Positions 4,192 to 10,885 of a DNA stretch of 36,770 bases are shown here, one piece after another. The notes below the pieces were generated by a model that searched no databases, had not been told where the DNA came from, and saw only the letters and a program-made list of their open reading frames with translations. The number at the start of each line of letters is the position of its first letter. Positions within the stretch are counted from its first letter, which is position 1. A program made the translations under genes and the position numbers. The stretch is from Nitrospirota bacterium (GTDB lineage Bacteria > Nitrospirota > Thermodesulfovibrionia > Thermodesulfovibrionales > Dissulfurispiraceae), in the NCBI GenBank assembly GCA_004321915.1, contig SCQE01000094.1, positions 1 through 36,770 of the forward strand, read 5' to 3'.

Positions 4192-5145
4192 ATGGCAAAG
4201 AAACAAGACCCGGTATCGACAGCAGCGCTTGAAATAGTCGGCGCAGAGAAAATGCAGGAAAGCTTAAAGCAGAGCGAACAACAATTAAAGGAAAAGAGCA
4301 TGGTAATAGCTGCCGAACTGGTAGGGACAATAAAGGCTATGAATTTTATGCGCTCGCTTTCTGATATTACCGTCCTCGTGAAGCTCAAAGAATTAAAGGA
4401 GAGCAATCACTATAAGGCATCTTTTTCCACATGGGAAGAAACCTGCGAGGCGATGGGTCTAAAACGCAGGACCGTGGATGAAAAACTTGCAGACCTCGAA
4501 CCCTTCAGAGATGACTTTCTCGGCAATTTCGCCAGTTTCTTTAGCAACGATTTCAGGAAAATCAAATACTTAGGCAAAGCAGTTTCGGCGGAATCCGCCA
4601 AAATTGAAGATAATGCCATCCTTTATAACGGCGAAACTATCCCTGTTACTCCAGAGCATGCCGACGAAATACAGGCCCTGATCGAGAAGCTCGAAGACGA
4701 CTACAAAGCCAAAATCTCAGACAAGGAGTCCGAGCTTAAAGCTCAGAAGCGCATCGCCTCCTCCAAAGAAGATGTTATCAAGAAGATGGAAAAGGAGATC
4801 AAGCGTCTTGAGCGCACTGCAACAATCGACGATCTGTCTCCTGAAGAGCGCGAGTCTTTTGACCTCATGGCCCGTGTGCAGGGCGATATTGTTTCGCTCT
4901 TTAGCGCGCTTAAGCAGCAGATTGATTATCACAAGGCACCCGCATCCGTGCTGCGCTCGCTGTATTTCCTTTATATCTTCGGTTCCAAAATATTCAGCGA
5001 CGAACGCATGGCACTGAATGAAGTGTATAAGGATGCCGAAATGGTTCCGTGGGAAATTGACGAATGCGAACTTCCACCTTCTGCCGTGCTGGCAAAAGAG
5101 ATGCCCTTAACCAAGGGCTTAAAGCACAAAAAAGGAAAGAAGTAA
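4192..5145 (+). CDS. Coiled-coil protein of the early operon
   Basis: This 317-residue protein has an N-terminal helical region (about 40-105) that includes LKELKESNHYKASFSTWEETCEAMGLKRRTVDEKLADL. That resembles DUF3102-like segments in which a helix-turn-helix follows a KELKES motif. A long charged coiled coil spans about residues 160-215, and a helical C-terminal domain is followed by a Lys-rich tail. The ATG follows GGAGG closely. It lies immediately upstream of the transposase, where transposable phages often carry accessory early genes. The function is not known; a DNA-binding structural or replication role is a reasonable guess. Confidence 0.65.
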   Translation: MAKKQDPVSTAALEIVGAEKMQESLKQSEQQLKEKSMVIAAELVGTIKAMNFMRSLSDITVLVKLKELKESNHYKASFSTWEETCEAMGLKRRTVDEKLADLEPFRDDFLGNFASFFSNDFRKIKYLGKAVSAESAKIEDNAILYNGETIPVTPEHADEIQALIEKLEDDYKAKISDKESELKAQKRIASSKEDVIKKMEKEIKRLERTATIDDLSPEERESFDLMARVQGDIVSLFSALKQQIDYHKAPASVLRSLYFLYIFGSKIFSDERMALNEVYKDAEMVPWEIDECELPPSAVLAKEMPLTKGLKHKKGKK

Positions 5146-5150
5146 TTATT

Positions 5151-6950
5151 ATGCCGGTCTCTGAAGTCATACTCCAGCACGTATATCAGTCCATGTCCGG
5201 TCTTGCCGAAGGCGAGGCCGGACGCAAGGCTTTAGAACTCGCCGAACATTACGGCGTGACGCGCCAGACCATATTCCGTTATGCGGCGATCAAGGGCCTC
5301 CGCTGGAGAAAAGAAAAAAACACCAAAGGTTCGACGCGAGTATCGGAGGATACGCTCAAGGCAGCGGGTGCATTGCTCCTTGCCTCGCGCCGCACCAGCA
5401 ACGAAATCCCTCTGCCTGCATGCGATGCAAAAGAGATGCTCGAAGACTCGGGTGTGGACACAGGGGTTTCGACCTCCCGCTTTTTAACTTTAATGCGTGA
5501 GCGCGAAATCAACAAAGATGCGCTTTTGCAGCCCTCACCCCATCAAACAATGCTCAGCGAGCATCCCAATCATGTCTGGCAGTTCGACGTGACCAACTGT
5601 TTGCAATACTTCCTTGACGATAAAGGCATGGGCGAGCGCGATGCAGACATGACACTGTACAAAAACAAGATCGTGCAGACCGCCAAGTCTATTAAAAAAG
5701 AACTGCTGAGATACGCCGTTGTTGACCACTGCACCGGCGCGTTCTTTTTGTGGTACTACTACGCCTCCGGCGAGCGTGCTATAGACGGCGCGGATTTTCT
5801 GTATAAGGCCATGCGACCCAAGAACGAAATTATCGAGCAGACATGGAACGGCTCCAGTGGCAGCAAGCTCGGCAAATATCACTTTCACGGCGTGCCGTTT
5901 ATGCTCATCCCTGACAGAGGCTCCATTATCACCAATAAGGCCAACGAAAACTTATTAAAGGCGCTCCGCATAAAGGTAGAACCGCACATGCCGGGCAATC
6001 CAAGGGCAAAAGGCTCGATAGAAGGATTGATGCATATCATCAACCGCTTTGAAGCGAATCTGAAATTTAAGCGCCCCCGGGATCTGGCAGAGCTTAACGC
6101 ATGGGCGCTGGACTGGTGCATTAAATTCAACGGCGTCAACCTTATGCGTGGCGTGGCTCCTCGATCCGCCATGTGGTCAACCATACGCGCCGAGCATTTA
6201 CGACTTTGCCCCGAATGGCATATATACAAAATGCTGATCAGGAGGCCGGAAATAGACAAGCGTGTTGACGGTGCGCTGCACTTCGCTCTTGACGGCAAGA
6301 CGTATCAGGTGCCTAATCCAAACGCGGCACGCAAGACCGTTAAGGTCGTCATACAGCCGTATGAATACCCGAACGTGGAAGTCCACTTTAACGGTGAGGT
6401 GTGGCTGCTGCAACCGATTCCAAAAGACCAGTACGGCAGGCTCACACAGGGTACAACCTTCGGAGAATACAAGAGCCACAAATATACAGAAACGCAGAAA
6501 GCAAAAGCGGAGATGGAGAAGATCGCATCCGAACAGTGGGGACTCACATGGAAGGGCACAGGCGACAAGCGCAGGGCTGTTGCGCCTCCTGTGGGTGCAG
6601 AGACTCCCTTACAGGTCTTCGGGCATCAGGCAGAGAAGGTCAAGGTCGAGTTTTTGAACAGGCAGGGCACGGAGCTTGAGTACATAAAGCCCGTAGAGCT
6701 GACCGAGCCAATGCAGCCTCATGCAGTGGAAGTCTCCCGCGCAATAGTTGATCGCAAGGTCCCCATTCTTGAGCTCATCAAAGAGCTGCGTGACGTTATG
6801 ACTCCCGCGCTCAATCAGGCATTGCGCGAAACCTATGGGCAGGGCATCGAGAAATCCAAGATAGAGGAGGTGGTGAGTCAGATCAAGGCCGGAATATGGA
6901 ATCCCGGCAGCAGTGAAGAGCAAAAATTGGCCGCAGCAGGCGGCCTGTAA
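5151..6950 (+). CDS. A: DDE transposase, MuA-like
   Basis: This 599-residue transposase catalyses strand transfer and replicative transposition of the phage genome. The N-terminus has a helix-turn-helix (AEHYGVTRQTIFRYAA, residues 31-46). The catalytic core contains Asp146 (WQFDVT), Asp255 (PDRGS) and Glu291 (GSIEGL), with 35 residues between the last two, the exact DD(35)E pattern. After the core there is a Mu-type beta-barrel region and a C-terminal part that may contact the B protein. The ATG at 5151 is preceded by AGGAAAG; an upstream in-frame extension runs inside the previous gene and is not needed. The protein presumably binds the end sites at 151-175 and 36602-36626. Confidence 0.95.
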   Translation: MPVSEVILQHVYQSMSGLAEGEAGRKALELAEHYGVTRQTIFRYAAIKGLRWRKEKNTKGSTRVSEDTLKAAGALLLASRRTSNEIPLPACDAKEMLEDSGVDTGVSTSRFLTLMREREINKDALLQPSPHQTMLSEHPNHVWQFDVTNCLQYFLDDKGMGERDADMTLYKNKIVQTAKSIKKELLRYAVVDHCTGAFFLWYYYASGERAIDGADFLYKAMRPKNEIIEQTWNGSSGSKLGKYHFHGVPFMLIPDRGSIITNKANENLLKALRIKVEPHMPGNPRAKGSIEGLMHIINRFEANLKFKRPRDLAELNAWALDWCIKFNGVNLMRGVAPRSAMWSTIRAEHLRLCPEWHIYKMLIRRPEIDKRVDGALHFALDGKTYQVPNPNAARKTVKVVIQPYEYPNVEVHFNGEVWLLQPIPKDQYGRLTQGTTFGEYKSHKYTETQKAKAEMEKIASEQWGLTWKGTGDKRRAVAPPVGAETPLQVFGHQAEKVKVEFLNRQGTELEYIKPVELTEPMQPHAVEVSRAIVDRKVPILELIKELRDVMTPALNQALRETYGQGIEKSKIEEVVSQIKAGIWNPGSSEEQKLAAAGGL

Positions 6951-6966: not shown

Positions 6967-8235
6967 GTGCCTACAGCAGCAGCGTATATAACACCGTTTA
7001 AGCCGATGACTATCAAGCGGTTATTGCTCCAGTTGGGAATTGATCAGGCAACGGTAAGCAGGTCTCTGGACGTATCCCGCGCGCTCGTGAGTTTGGTTAT
7101 TAATCGCGGATATATTCCTCCGAGCATGCGCGATATCAGGGAAAGGATAGAGCAATTATTGGTAATACGTCCGGATGTCGATGAATGGCTTAAAAAAAAT
7201 CAAACAAACATCACGGCTATCTGGCAGATAGAGGGCGAGGATCTGCGCGACAGGAAACCCTCCGGGGCCAACAGGCGCGGACGAGAAACGAACAAGATGC
7301 CCGCAATAGTGATCTGCAATCCCAATACTGACGCATCTAAAATCAAGGAGGAAGACTACATGCTATCGCAGGAAGCAAAAAAGCATTTCAAGATGTTCAG
7401 ACATCCATTCTTAAACGACATGGAAAAAGACGGCGACACCTATATGGGAGAAGACCACCGGTACATACTCGAGGTGATGGACTTCGCCGCAAATCACGGC
7501 GGCATGGTCGCGGTGATCGGCGAGGTCGGCAGCGGTAAGACCAGCATGCGCCGCGAGCTCGAAAAGCGCATCAGGCGCTCAGGCGATATACGCATTGTGT
7601 ATCCGCGCATCATAGACAAATCAAGGGCAACCGCATCCTCATTATGCGATGCCATTGTCTATGACCTGACTGATGGCAAGGGCACGCCGAAGTCGCGGCT
7701 GGAAGCCAAGTCGCGGCAGGTAGAGCAGCATCTAAAGGATCACTGCCGCAGCGGCATGAAAGTCGCAATGATCATCGAAGAGGCGCAGGACCTTATAGCC
7801 AACAGCCATACGATCAAGATGCTCAAACGCTTTAACGAGATCGAGTTCGAGGGCAAAAAGACCATAGGCATTATCCTGATCGGCCAGAGCGAGCTTTCAA
7901 GCGTGTTTGATGAGACTGTGAACTACCACATGCGCGAAGTTATCAGACGCTTTGAGGTTGCCATAATACGCGGACTTAACGGCGACCTCAAAACATACCT
8001 TGATCATAAGTTCAAGCGCGTCGGAGTTGACCTAAAAACAATCATCACCGATGAGGGCATTAAGGCGCTGTCCGACAGGCTCACTACAAAAGAAGGCAGG
8101 CGCAAGGTGAGCATAGCCTATCCGCTTACGGTCAACCGCTGGATGGTGCGTGCCATGAACGAGGCCGTAGAACTCGGGGAACGCATAGTCACTCCTGAGA
8201 TCATCAACAGTCTGCAGGGCTTGGAGGCGCTATGA
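6967..8235 (+). CDS. B: MuB-like transposition target ATPase
   Basis: This is a 422-residue AAA+ ATPase. An N-terminal helix-turn-helix (residues 26-48, IDQATVSRSLDVSRALVSLVINR) is followed by a linker and an ATPase domain. That domain has Walker A GEVGSGKT (185-192), Walker B VAMIIEEAQD (266-275) and a sensor-like GIILIGQSEL (301-310). In Mu, B binds target DNA, delivers it to the transposase and gives target immunity. At 422 residues it is longer than Mu B (312). The GTG start has GGGGG about ten bases upstream. The gene follows the transposase by 16 bases and overlaps the next gene as ATGA. Confidence 0.92.
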   Translation: MPTAAAYITPFKPMTIKRLLLQLGIDQATVSRSLDVSRALVSLVINRGYIPPSMRDIRERIEQLLVIRPDVDEWLKKNQTNITAIWQIEGEDLRDRKPSGANRRGRETNKMPAIVICNPNTDASKIKEEDYMLSQEAKKHFKMFRHPFLNDMEKDGDTYMGEDHRYILEVMDFAANHGGMVAVIGEVGSGKTSMRRELEKRIRRSGDIRIVYPRIIDKSRATASSLCDAIVYDLTDGKGTPKSRLEAKSRQVEQHLKDHCRSGMKVAMIIEEAQDLIANSHTIKMLKRFNEIEFEGKKTIGIILIGQSELSSVFDETVNYHMREVIRRFEVAIIRGLNGDLKTYLDHKFKRVGVDLKTIITDEGIKALSDRLTTKEGRRKVSIAYPLTVNRWMVRAMNEAVELGERIVTPEIINSLQGLEAL

Positions 8236-8686: not shown

Positions 8687-9094
8687 ATGACGACTACAAC
8701 AATGGAAGAATGCCTTAACAAATCCTGTATCGGCTGCACATGCACGGTAAGTGCCTCGTCAGAAAAACCGGACGTTTTGTCCGGATACAAAACCGAACTG
8801 TGGGACCTGTATGCAGAGTTTTTGAAGTCTGTGCAGAACTGTCTCGGCGATTATTGCGATGAGTTTATTACGGCAGAAGCATGGGTTACAGAAAGGGTCG
8901 TTGTTGTACGACAGAAAGCCTTCTCGTTCTCGGACTGTGCGGAGGACTATTTTGATTTGGCGCTCGTCTTCACCGTGCTCATGGACCACGCGATTTCATG
9001 GGGCTACGTCGAGGCCTCGCGTAGGCTCGAAGCGCTTGCCGAGCGCGCAAAAGTATTGAACGAAAAAATGTACAGAAAGGAGATAGGAGGATGA
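8687..9094 (+). CDS. Hypothetical early protein with N-terminal Cys cluster
   Basis: This 135-residue protein opens with a Cys-rich stretch (CLNKSCIGCTCTV, residues 9-21) that could hold a metal, followed by a mainly helical domain ending in a basic tail. GGGGG lies about ten bases before the ATG. The stop overlaps the start of gam as ATGA. I do not recognise it. It belongs to a run of four small Cys-bearing proteins between B and the methyltransferase locus. Confidence 0.65.
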   Translation: MTTTTMEECLNKSCIGCTCTVSASSEKPDVLSGYKTELWDLYAEFLKSVQNCLGDYCDEFITAEAWVTERVVVVRQKAFSFSDCAEDYFDLALVFTVLMDHAISWGYVEASRRLEALAERAKVLNEKMYRKEIGG

Positions 9095-9627
9095 GGCTGG
9101 GAGATATCGAACAACTGGCAAAGCGGTACCATGCAACCGAAGCGGATCTGGCAGAGAAGATCGTGGCTATGGATAGGGAACTCAAGTCTATCGAGGCGCG
9201 GTACCTGCCGCTGATCAAGCGGCGCTTCGAGGCAGCGGTTGAGGCCCACGCATCATTGCATGCCGGGGTATTACAGAGCCCTGAACTTTTCAAACAGCCC
9301 AAGACGATAGTTATTCACGGCGTGAAGTGCGGCTTCGGTAAGGGCAAGGGCAAGATCATCATCGAGAACGCAGACAACACAGTGCGCCTGATCGAAAAGC
9401 ATCTGCCTGAACAAGCCGAGGCGCTCATTGAGACGACAAAGAAGCCCATGAAAAACGCCCTCCAAAACCTAAGCGGCGCGGAACTTAAAAAAGTAGGAGT
9501 CACGGTACAGGAGGCCGGAGAGCAGGTCGTTATCAGGCTCGTAGCCAACGTAGTGGAGAAGATCGTAGCGGCTTTCAGGAAGCAATACATGAAAAACGGC
9601 GAAGCGGAGATGGAGGAGGCGGCATGA
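9091..9627 (+). CDS. gam: Host-nuclease inhibitor Gam
   Basis: This 178-residue protein matches Mu Gam in size (174) and pattern. A long N-terminal coiled coil (MRLGDIEQLAKRYHATEADLAEKIVAMDRELKSIEARY) is followed by the beta core with the IVIHGVKCGFGKGKGKI segment, and it ends in the conserved helix with LVANVVEKIVAAFRKQ. Gam is a Ku-like dimer that binds double-stranded DNA ends and blocks exonucleases. GGAGATAGGAGG precedes the ATG. Both ends overlap neighbours as ATGA, so it is translated as part of a coupled series. Confidence 0.9.
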   Translation: MRLGDIEQLAKRYHATEADLAEKIVAMDRELKSIEARYLPLIKRRFEAAVEAHASLHAGVLQSPELFKQPKTIVIHGVKCGFGKGKGKIIIENADNTVRLIEKHLPEQAEALIETTKKPMKNALQNLSGAELKKVGVTVQEAGEQVVIRLVANVVEKIVAAFRKQYMKNGEAEMEEAA

Positions 9628-9875: not shown

Positions 9876-10874
9876 ATGAAAAAAACATGTATGAACTATC
9901 ACTCTTTACAGGCGCGGGGGGGGGCATCCTCGGATCAAAAATCCTTGGATGGAAAACCCTCGGATACGTCGAGGTCAACGCTTACAGACAGCGAATCCTC
10001 GCGCAGCGCATTGCAGATGGAATTCTTGATGCCGGGCCTATATTCGGCGATATCCGTGCATTCATCAGTGAAGGGTACGCCCTCAGTTATCAAGGCATGG
10101 TTGATGTCGTATCGGCAGGTTTCCCCTGCCAACCCTTTAGCGTTGCCGGCAAAGGACTCGCCGAAAACGATCCCCGCAATATGTGGCCTGAAACTATCGA
10201 AGTCATTCGCATCGTTCGACCGAGGCACATCCTCTTGGAAAACGTCCCCGGACTTCTCTCAAAGCCATACGTTAGGCGAATTCTCGGAGACTTGGCCGAA
10301 ATCTTTCCTTATATTCGAGGGGGCTGCTTATCGGCTTGCACCGTTGGAGCAAATCACCGGAGGACGCGACTCTGGCTTATTGCCGACACCGAACGCCGGG
10401 GATGGTGTGAGAGGTGCTCGACCGGCGGACGGCAAGAGAGGGAAGTTGCTGACGGATTATGCGGGACCGAATCCCACTCGGCGTTGGCCGACGCCAACGG
10501 TGATGGATGCGGCAGGCTTTTGCGGCAAGCCGGACAAAGGGCGGACATCGCCAAATTCGGGGAGGACACTGACAGGCAAGGTATTGGAGATAGAAGGCGT
10601 AGGGCCCCACGCGAAAAAAATGTGGCCGACGCCGAGGGCATCTGCGAGCGGTCCGGACTTTGCCCGAATAAACAGAATTACGAAAAACGGGAACAAGCCG
10701 GGCGGGGACGATCTCGTGACGGCCGTAGTAAAAGAAATGGGTCCGACGACTGGTGGGAGATTGAACCCCGACTGGGTCGAGTGGCTCATGGGGTGGCCGC
10801 TCGGCTGGACAGACTTGAGGCCATTGGACTTGGACAGGTACCAAGAGTGGTGGCGGAAGTATGGCGATTATTGA
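9876..10874 (+). CDS. Overprinted reading frame inside the cytosine methyltransferase gene
   Basis: This is a second open frame of 332 codons, offset by one base and covering nearly all of the methyltransferase gene. Its product has an ordered motif set. SFASFDRGTSSWKTS (110-124) overlies the ENV motif. Three [LW]PTP repeats (LPTPNAGDG 169-177, WPTPTVMDA 204-212, WPTPRASAS 250-258) overlie the ADT/ADA repeats. LNPDWVEWLMGWPLGWTDL (296-314) overlies motif X. I recall similar proteins annotated in many phages, sometimes loosely as methyltransferases; this needs a search. Start ATG 9876 directly abuts the ribozyme, with GAGG two bases upstream. It could be translated, be joined to the other frame by slippage at G9, or be an unused shadow. 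Confidence 0.5.
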   Translation: MKKTCMNYHSLQARGGASSDQKSLDGKPSDTSRSTLTDSESSRSALQMEFLMPGLYSAISVHSSVKGTPSVIKAWLMSYRQVSPANPLALPAKDSPKTIPAICGLKLSKSFASFDRGTSSWKTSPDFSQSHTLGEFSETWPKSFLIFEGAAYRLAPLEQITGGRDSGLLPTPNAGDGVRGARPADGKRGKLLTDYAGPNPTRRWPTPTVMDAAGFCGKPDKGRTSPNSGRTLTGKVLEIEGVGPHAKKMWPTPRASASGPDFARINRITKNGNKPGGDDLVTAVVKEMGPTTGGRLNPDWVEWLMGWPLGWTDLRPLDLDRYQEWWRKYGDY

Positions 10875-10885
10875 ACGATGAGTGA
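9887..10885 (+). CDS. dcm: DNA cytosine-5 methyltransferase (Dcm type)
   Basis: This 332-residue protein transfers methyl from S-adenosylmethionine to C5 of cytosine. Motif I FTGAGG is at residues 7-12, motif IV with catalytic Cys81 in GFPCQPFS, motif VI ENV at 118-120, motif VIII-like HRRTR at 157-161, and a motif IX/X-like end VAHGVAARLDRLEAIGLGQVP at 299-319. The usual GN of motif X (IGNGQVP) is GL here. The region between (about 168-290), where a target-recognition domain would sit, is short, Arg/Gly-rich and built on ADT/ADA repeats. Start ATG 9887 lacks a well-placed Shine-Dalgarno sequence. A G9 tract encodes motif I. It probably protects phage DNA from restriction. Confidence 0.85.
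   Translation: MYELSLFTGAGGGILGSKILGWKTLGYVEVNAYRQRILAQRIADGILDAGPIFGDIRAFISEGYALSYQGMVDVVSAGFPCQPFSVAGKGLAENDPRNMWPETIEVIRIVRPRHILLENVPGLLSKPYVRRILGDLAEIFPYIRGGCLSACTVGANHRRTRLWLIADTERRGWCERCSTGGRQEREVADGLCGTESHSALADANGDGCGRLLRQAGQRADIAKFGEDTDRQGIGDRRRRAPREKNVADAEGICERSGLCPNKQNYEKREQAGRGRSRDGRSKRNGSDDWWEIEPRLGRVAHGVAARLDRLEAIGLGQVPRVVAEVWRLLNDE
9916..9924 (+). repeat. G9 homopolymer at the start of the methyltransferase frames
   Basis: Nine consecutive G lie 30 bases into the methyltransferase frame and 41 bases into the overlapping frame. A slip of one base exchanges the two frames, whether by replication slippage or by ribosome slippage. From the ATG at 9876, a -1 shift enters the methyltransferase frame just at motif I. 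Poly-G tracts of this length are classic phase-variation sites; here it also encodes the Gly run of motif I, so it may simply be constrained coding sequence. Confidence 0.6.

Follow-up and report, generated by a model that had tools for sequence, protein, structure and literature searches.

A probable C5-cytosine DNA methyltransferase encoded as two polypeptides in two frames of the same DNA in a Mu-like prophage

A Mu-like prophage locus in a Nitrospirota bacterium appears, with a probability of about 0.9, to encode a single C5-cytosine DNA methyltransferase whose two polypeptides are read from different frames of one DNA segment. The chain in the dcm frame, named alpha, would bind AdoMet and carry out catalysis through motifs I-VIII and would end in a motif X helix, with a disordered spacer between them. 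The chain in the alternative frame, named beta, would form a small domain in which a conserved block is followed by an array of [LW]PTP cassettes, by which the target is read, and by motif IX. The two chains are presumed to associate into an active, methylating heterodimer, as those of M.EcoHK31I do, and translation probably starts from two ATGs 4 nt apart that are served by one ribosome-binding region. The likely role would be that of a phage modification enzyme directed against restriction, the specificity of which could be altered by swaps of cassettes.

The locus and its setting

The window, i.e., the whole stretch of DNA that was analysed, comprises 36,770 nt (contig SCQE01000094.1, positions 1 to 36,770); all features are given in its coordinates and lie on its + strand. 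Two ORFs of 332 codons each occupy the locus, one at 9876-10874 in the alternative frame (protein P0001, beta) and the other at 9887-10885 in the dcm frame (protein P0002, alpha). The surrounding region is a Mu-like prophage by its predicted gene content, with a MuA-like transposase (5064-6950, phrog_310), a MuB-like DNA transposition protein (6967-8235, phrog_296), a Mu Gam-like protein (9091-9627, phrog_491) and terminase-like genes. Neither a restriction enzyme nor a partner nuclease was found near the pair among the genes scanned, which were a subset of the window ORFs. Two more C5 methyltransferase genes (L268 and L283), with full-length matches to the Pfam family, are present in the host genome (G000, contigs C23 and C68).

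The dcm-frame chain

Alpha (9887-10885) was matched by PF00145 (E 1e-22) at residues 4-167 only. Motif I (LSLFTGAGGG, 9896-9925), motif IV with the catalytic Cys81 (GFPCQPFS, 10118-10141, invariant), motif VI (ENV, 10238-10246) and motif VIII (GANHRRTRL, 10346-10372) were located in alignment A2. The defining C5 methyltransferase series of motifs I, IV (PC), VI (ENV) and VIII is thus present in order and is accompanied by a Rossmann fold. The AF2 model is confident at residues 1-170 and 317-330, the latter in the motif X helix, and its fold matches the large domain of HhaI/HaeIII. At residues 178-293 the pLDDT is mostly below 50, and residues 168-288 (10388-10750) are regarded here as a spacer, predicted to be disordered from the pLDDT values. 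No motif IX is present in alpha.

Motif X (ARLDRLEAIGLGQVP; family consensus NRVDRLKAIGNGQVP) was placed at 10799-10843 by alignment A2 and by the AF2 helix at residues 317-331. In the window this motif reads GLGQVP, with GLG instead of GNG, the Leu being residue 315 (10829-10831). Of 232 loci, 227 have Asn at this position, and the window is the only one with Leu. Because Leu replaces the motif X Asn, the copy in the window may be impaired, weak or inactive.

A previous sequence-only reading of this DNA quoted motifs for both frames, and these are present. It placed motif X under WVEWLMG of the other frame, which is correct for the left part (alpha GRVAHGVA, 10775-10798), but the core GLGQVP (10826-10843) is located about 30 nt rightward. 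The GRVAHGVA stretch, taken as part of motif X, is largely forced by WVEWLMGWP in beta, and it is missing from the split relatives. That alpha is without motif IX and that WVEWLMGWP corresponds to motif IX had been overlooked.

The alternative-frame chain

P0001 matched phrog_1008 'DNA methyltransferase' (E 2e-28) with residues 76-314 over positions 38-281 of the 329 in the profile; the match covers most of the profile length and places P0001 in this family. No match was obtained for P0001 in Pfam or NCBIfam, nothing was found when the beta profile was compared with PDB sequences and Pfam, and the AF2 model of beta alone (pTM 0.30) showed no confident fold and no fold match in PDB. A conserved block of beta named bT (residues 104-175, SFASFDRGTSSWKTS...SETWPK, 10185-10400), with its 'SSWKT...TWPK' pattern, is double-coded on alpha motifs VI-VIII, with excess conservation of z 10-17.

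The motif IX missing from alpha is found in beta (LNPDWVEWLMGWPLGWT). It was assigned at 10761-10817 (LNPDWVEWLMGWPLGWTDL) by alignment to motif IX of single-chain C5 methyltransferases, with excess conservation of z 26-38. When the C-termini of split and fused relatives were compared with 20 ordinary C5 methyltransferases in hhalign, WVEWLMGWP was aligned with motif IX and RLKAIGNGQVP with motif X, with a modest E-value of 7e-4 (reversed control 0.15) and a low probability of 26%. The Pfam match was not extended over IX-X in split or fused proteins. Motifs IX and X of the C5 family are accounted for by the two chains together, IX in beta and X in alpha.

Since the alternative frame encodes parts that the dcm frame lacks, namely the recognition region and motif IX, beta is very probably no novel product but the other half of the same enzyme. 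The suggestion of the sequence-only reading that the second family, if real, was born by overprinting of dcm is supported only in part: the family is real and comes from the same loci, but beta would be the other half of the enzyme, and in the recognition region it is the dcm frame that is the shadow.

Complementary motifs and moved frame junctions in relatives

The motif sets of alpha and beta, as compared among relatives, are shown to be complementary. In 75 of the 80 viral loci selected by alpha, the N-domain and motif X are in alpha and motif IX is in beta, while in three others alpha holds the N-domain and beta holds both IX and X, so that the combined set is I-X in 78 of them; of the remaining two, one lies at the end of a contig and the other has a stop within alpha. 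A complete motif set in one ORF was found in none of the 80. Whether homologues of the two frames always come from the same loci had been proposed as a check, and the alpha N-domain was present in all 160 loci that were found through beta. A tblastn search with beta alone retrieved 73 phage records; the hosts differ widely, and the annotation often shows a pair of 'DNA methylase' genes at the same place.

Three other arrangements were observed. In the split relatives (L019, L042, L081, L208, L210, L085 of GaugeLDP and L086 of Lilbooboo), alpha ends directly past motif VIII and beta runs on through a WVEWLMGWP-type motif to a C-terminal RLKAIGNGQVP-type motif. In the mycobacteriophages FreddyB, Ramsey, Madiba and Akhila, a single ORF carries I-VIII, LPTP units, IX (WMMGWP) and X (GNGVCPQQ), and the other frame keeps only the bT block. 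In Gordonia phage JKSyngboy, I-VIII, IX (WMMGLP) and X are in one ORF, with bT and the LPTP units in the other frame. By these motif assignments, the blocks and their order in the DNA are constant and the frame junctions alone shift.

It is improbable that alpha is a complete methyltransferase and beta an unrelated protein, e.g., an inhibitor or a DNA-binding accessory. The lack of a detectable fold match for beta would agree with such an independent product; however, alpha has neither motif IX nor a folded recognition region, motif X shifts between the two chains, fused forms occur, and motif IX of beta aligns to the C5 family.

Several irregular loci and annotations were also noted. L164, L174 and L222 have one in-frame alpha stop just past motif VIII, whereas their beta is intact and motif X follows further on in the same frame; these could possibly be three-piece enzymes or cases of early decay. 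The annotated beta starts of GaugeLDP gene 81 (L085, 1798-2505) and Lilbooboo gene 33 (L086, 1768-2355) omit most of bT, and these annotations appear to be trimmed to avoid overlap with alpha motifs VI-VIII. In the fused-form mycobacteriophages (L255, L262, L263 and L264), bT survives as an unannotated ORF of ~102-114 aa over motifs VI-VIII. In L213 the alpha and beta frames swap within the N-domain, which fits a frameshift or an assembly error in a MAG.

The start module

The two putative start codons lie in the module ATGTATG (9887-9893), with the alpha ATG at 9887 and the beta ATG at 9891. The same module is seen in relatives: 140 of 182 loci have an ATG 4 nt after the alpha start (NTGAATGAR). 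Where alpha codon 2 encodes Asn, it is AAT in 130 cases and AAC in 2 (35 : 1 after clustering at 80% identity), as against 43% AAT at codon 2 of other ORFs, and this codon bias preserves the 4-nt spacing of the predicted starts. Beta most likely starts at ATG 9891, which gives 9891-10874, and its ORF can also start at ATG 9876, which is outside the module and 2 nt after a GAGG. No well-spaced Shine-Dalgarno sequence is present ahead of 9887 in the window; both ATGs would be initiated from one ribosome-binding region. Beta residues 1-100 showed no beta-specific conservation in distant pairs with the third frame as control, and therefore the true N-terminus of beta is uncertain and the leader may exist only for the shared start site.

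Programmed frameshifting could in principle make one chain that passes from I-VIII to the TRD and IX of the alternative frame and then back to X, and the order of blocks in the DNA is indeed colinear with that of a single-chain C5 methyltransferase, with single-ORF forms known among the relatives. This is nevertheless very unlikely. Two frameshifts would be required, a separate start codon for beta is under selection 4 nt past that of alpha, and the bT block, which lies atop VI-VIII, would drop out of such a chain.

Cassettes and target recognition

Cassettes were defined by cutting the beta sequences at [LW]PTP-like sites. Beta of the window contains three: cassette 1 (LPTPNAGD..., 10380-10484), a putative target-recognition unit; cassette 2 (WPTPTVMDAAGFCGKPDKG..., 10485-10622), of which the same family is present in L081 and L172; and cassette 3 (WPTPRASASGPDFARI...GGDDLVTAV, 10623-10757), of which the same family is present in GaugeLDP, JKSyngboy and Anthony. 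In total, 654 units from 257 betas gave 88 multi-member families, which occur at varying ordinal positions.

In loci with alpha N-domains >90% identical, beta is 20% identical between bT and IX, versus 76% in IX. Among 709 locus pairs with near-identical alphas, 527 have no cassette family in common. A total of 2267 cassette pairs are at least 65% identical, of which 1257 are at different ordinal positions and 117 are between loci with alphas <50% identical. The cassettes are shown by these comparisons to be reshuffled between loci. Target-recognition units would be expected to behave in this way, and each unit may read a target. Cassettes shared between loci (beta identity 70-85%) have a median identity of 76% when read in the beta frame, as against 36% in alpha and 37% in the third frame. 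The alpha spacer is a reading-frame shadow of the beta cassettes, so that the frame annotated as dcm is the shadow one in this region.

A broader proposal can be made only tentatively, and we consider its chance to be somewhat under even. A large family of phage methyltransferases would hide a target-recognition subunit in the second frame of dcm; each [LW]PTP cassette would be a separate recognition module, and specificities would be changed or added by swapping cassettes that are kept open in two frames. Many 'DNA cytosine methyltransferase' genes annotated as single-chain, with GRVAxGVxxRVDRLKAxGN C-termini, would then be half an enzyme.

Coding of both frames

When the alpha protein of the window was kept and its synonymous codons were permuted, a mean of 6.8 stops was expected in the alternative frame and 1 was observed (P<0.001), this being the stop of the alternative ORF itself. 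For the same test in relatives, loci were chosen by the dcm frame alone, and synonymous codons were permuted within each alpha gene; P0002 alone as query in viral contigs gave 3 loci, and an alignment was used as the query instead. In the 76 loci picked by alpha only, 19 stops were observed in the alternative frame versus 413 expected, a 22-fold depletion from a permutation that models phylogeny incompletely and whose controls behaved as expected. These were the third frame of the same loci (1203 observed versus 1082 expected) and the same frame of 20 ordinary single-chain C5 methyltransferases of the host's relatives (376 versus 341 stops, none open). The view that two such open frames are not due to chance was thus borne out. 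Stops scattered through the second frame of relatives, which had been named as evidence against it, were not seen, since beyond alpha codon 60 only 2 were observed versus ~377 expected in the viral loci selected by alpha. From the stop depletion and the ordinary C5 control, the beta frame is coding in the phage family and is not open by an accident of C5 sequence.

Conservation was tested in pairs with alpha identity <45% only, and the third frame again served as control. The conservation of beta exceeds that imposed by alpha at alpha residues 101-166 (z 10-17) and, very strongly, at 289-312 (z 26-38); that of alpha exceeds what beta imposes at 1-166 and 289-332, and weakly so at 167-288. On the basis of this test, the true double coding consists of beta residues 104-170 on motifs VI-VIII and of motif IX beside motif X. 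Both frames are under coding constraint, and both 332-codon frames very probably encode proteins.

The 'systematic shadow' considered in the sequence-only reading, i.e., a frame that codes for nothing and stays open through the amino-acid or codon bias of dcm, with phrog_1008 as a systematic annotation artefact, is hardly credible and was rejected. It is true that beta is in part forced by alpha, as where the GRVA-GVA stretch mirrors motif IX, and that beta 1-100 is without conservation of its own. The alternative frame is nevertheless open and conserved far beyond that forcing, with a stop depletion that is absent from ordinary C5 genes, with cassettes conserved in the beta frame (76%) and not in the alpha (36%) or third frame (37%), and with conserved IX and X in beta where alpha ends past motif VIII (L019, L042, L081, L085 and L086).

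Implications

The two-polypeptide reading offers a role for phrog_1008, a protein family that is common in phages but has no stated role, and accounts for the overlapping pairs of 'DNA methylase' genes that annotators now trim or drop. On this reading, many 'dcm' genes of phages should seem inactive when cloned alone. The locus would be a natural example of dual coding over a long segment, and one with an evident reason, for which the split, fused and frame-moved relatives serve as natural controls, and the catalogue of cassettes makes the change of methylation specificity in phages directly testable.

Comparison with known systems

No direct description of a two-frame overlapping phage methyltransferase was found in the literature searched, the coverage of which was partial. 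The closest precedent is M.EcoHK31I, the small-subunit gene of which is also in another frame within the large-subunit gene, and which shares its motif layout with alpha and beta of the window. It is a two-polypeptide C5 methyltransferase (YGGCCR) with I-VIII and X in the large chain and IX in the small chain (PMC3404938), and it is naturally split and active (PMC3439449). The window pair has the same distribution, I-VIII and X in one chain and IX in the other. However, the TRD of M.EcoHK31I was predicted in the large subunit (PMC3404938), whereas the alpha spacer of the window is disordered and unconserved and the variable region is in beta. The phage family also differs from M.EcoHK31I in its beta cassette array, its wide spread in phages and its 4-nt start module, and no partner nuclease was found among the scanned window genes.

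M.AquI (CYCGRG) is a split C5 methyltransferase whose large chain carries I-VIII and whose small chain carries IX-X (PMC3404938). This division is found only in the split relatives, such as L019, L042, L081, L208 and L210, and not in the window, where X is kept in alpha. Unlike in M.AquI, bT of the phage family overlaps motifs VI-VIII extensively on the same DNA.

The C5 methyltransferases of Bacillus phages (SPR, SPbeta, phi3T and H2) are multispecific and have several tandem recognition units (PMC8936443). The cassettes are likewise tandem units that may read targets, but they are in the second frame and are reshuffled, and the Bacillus phage enzymes are not described as two-frame. For phrog_1008, PHROG gives 'DNA methyltransferase' only; it is argued here that the family is the half with the TRD and motif IX and that it overlaps alpha. 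Out-of-frame HNH inserts of the ShiLan type have been reported in phage methylases (PMC11855218), and there too a second protein is hidden in the other frame of a phage methylase gene. That insert is a mobile homing endonuclease, whereas beta would be the enzyme's own half.
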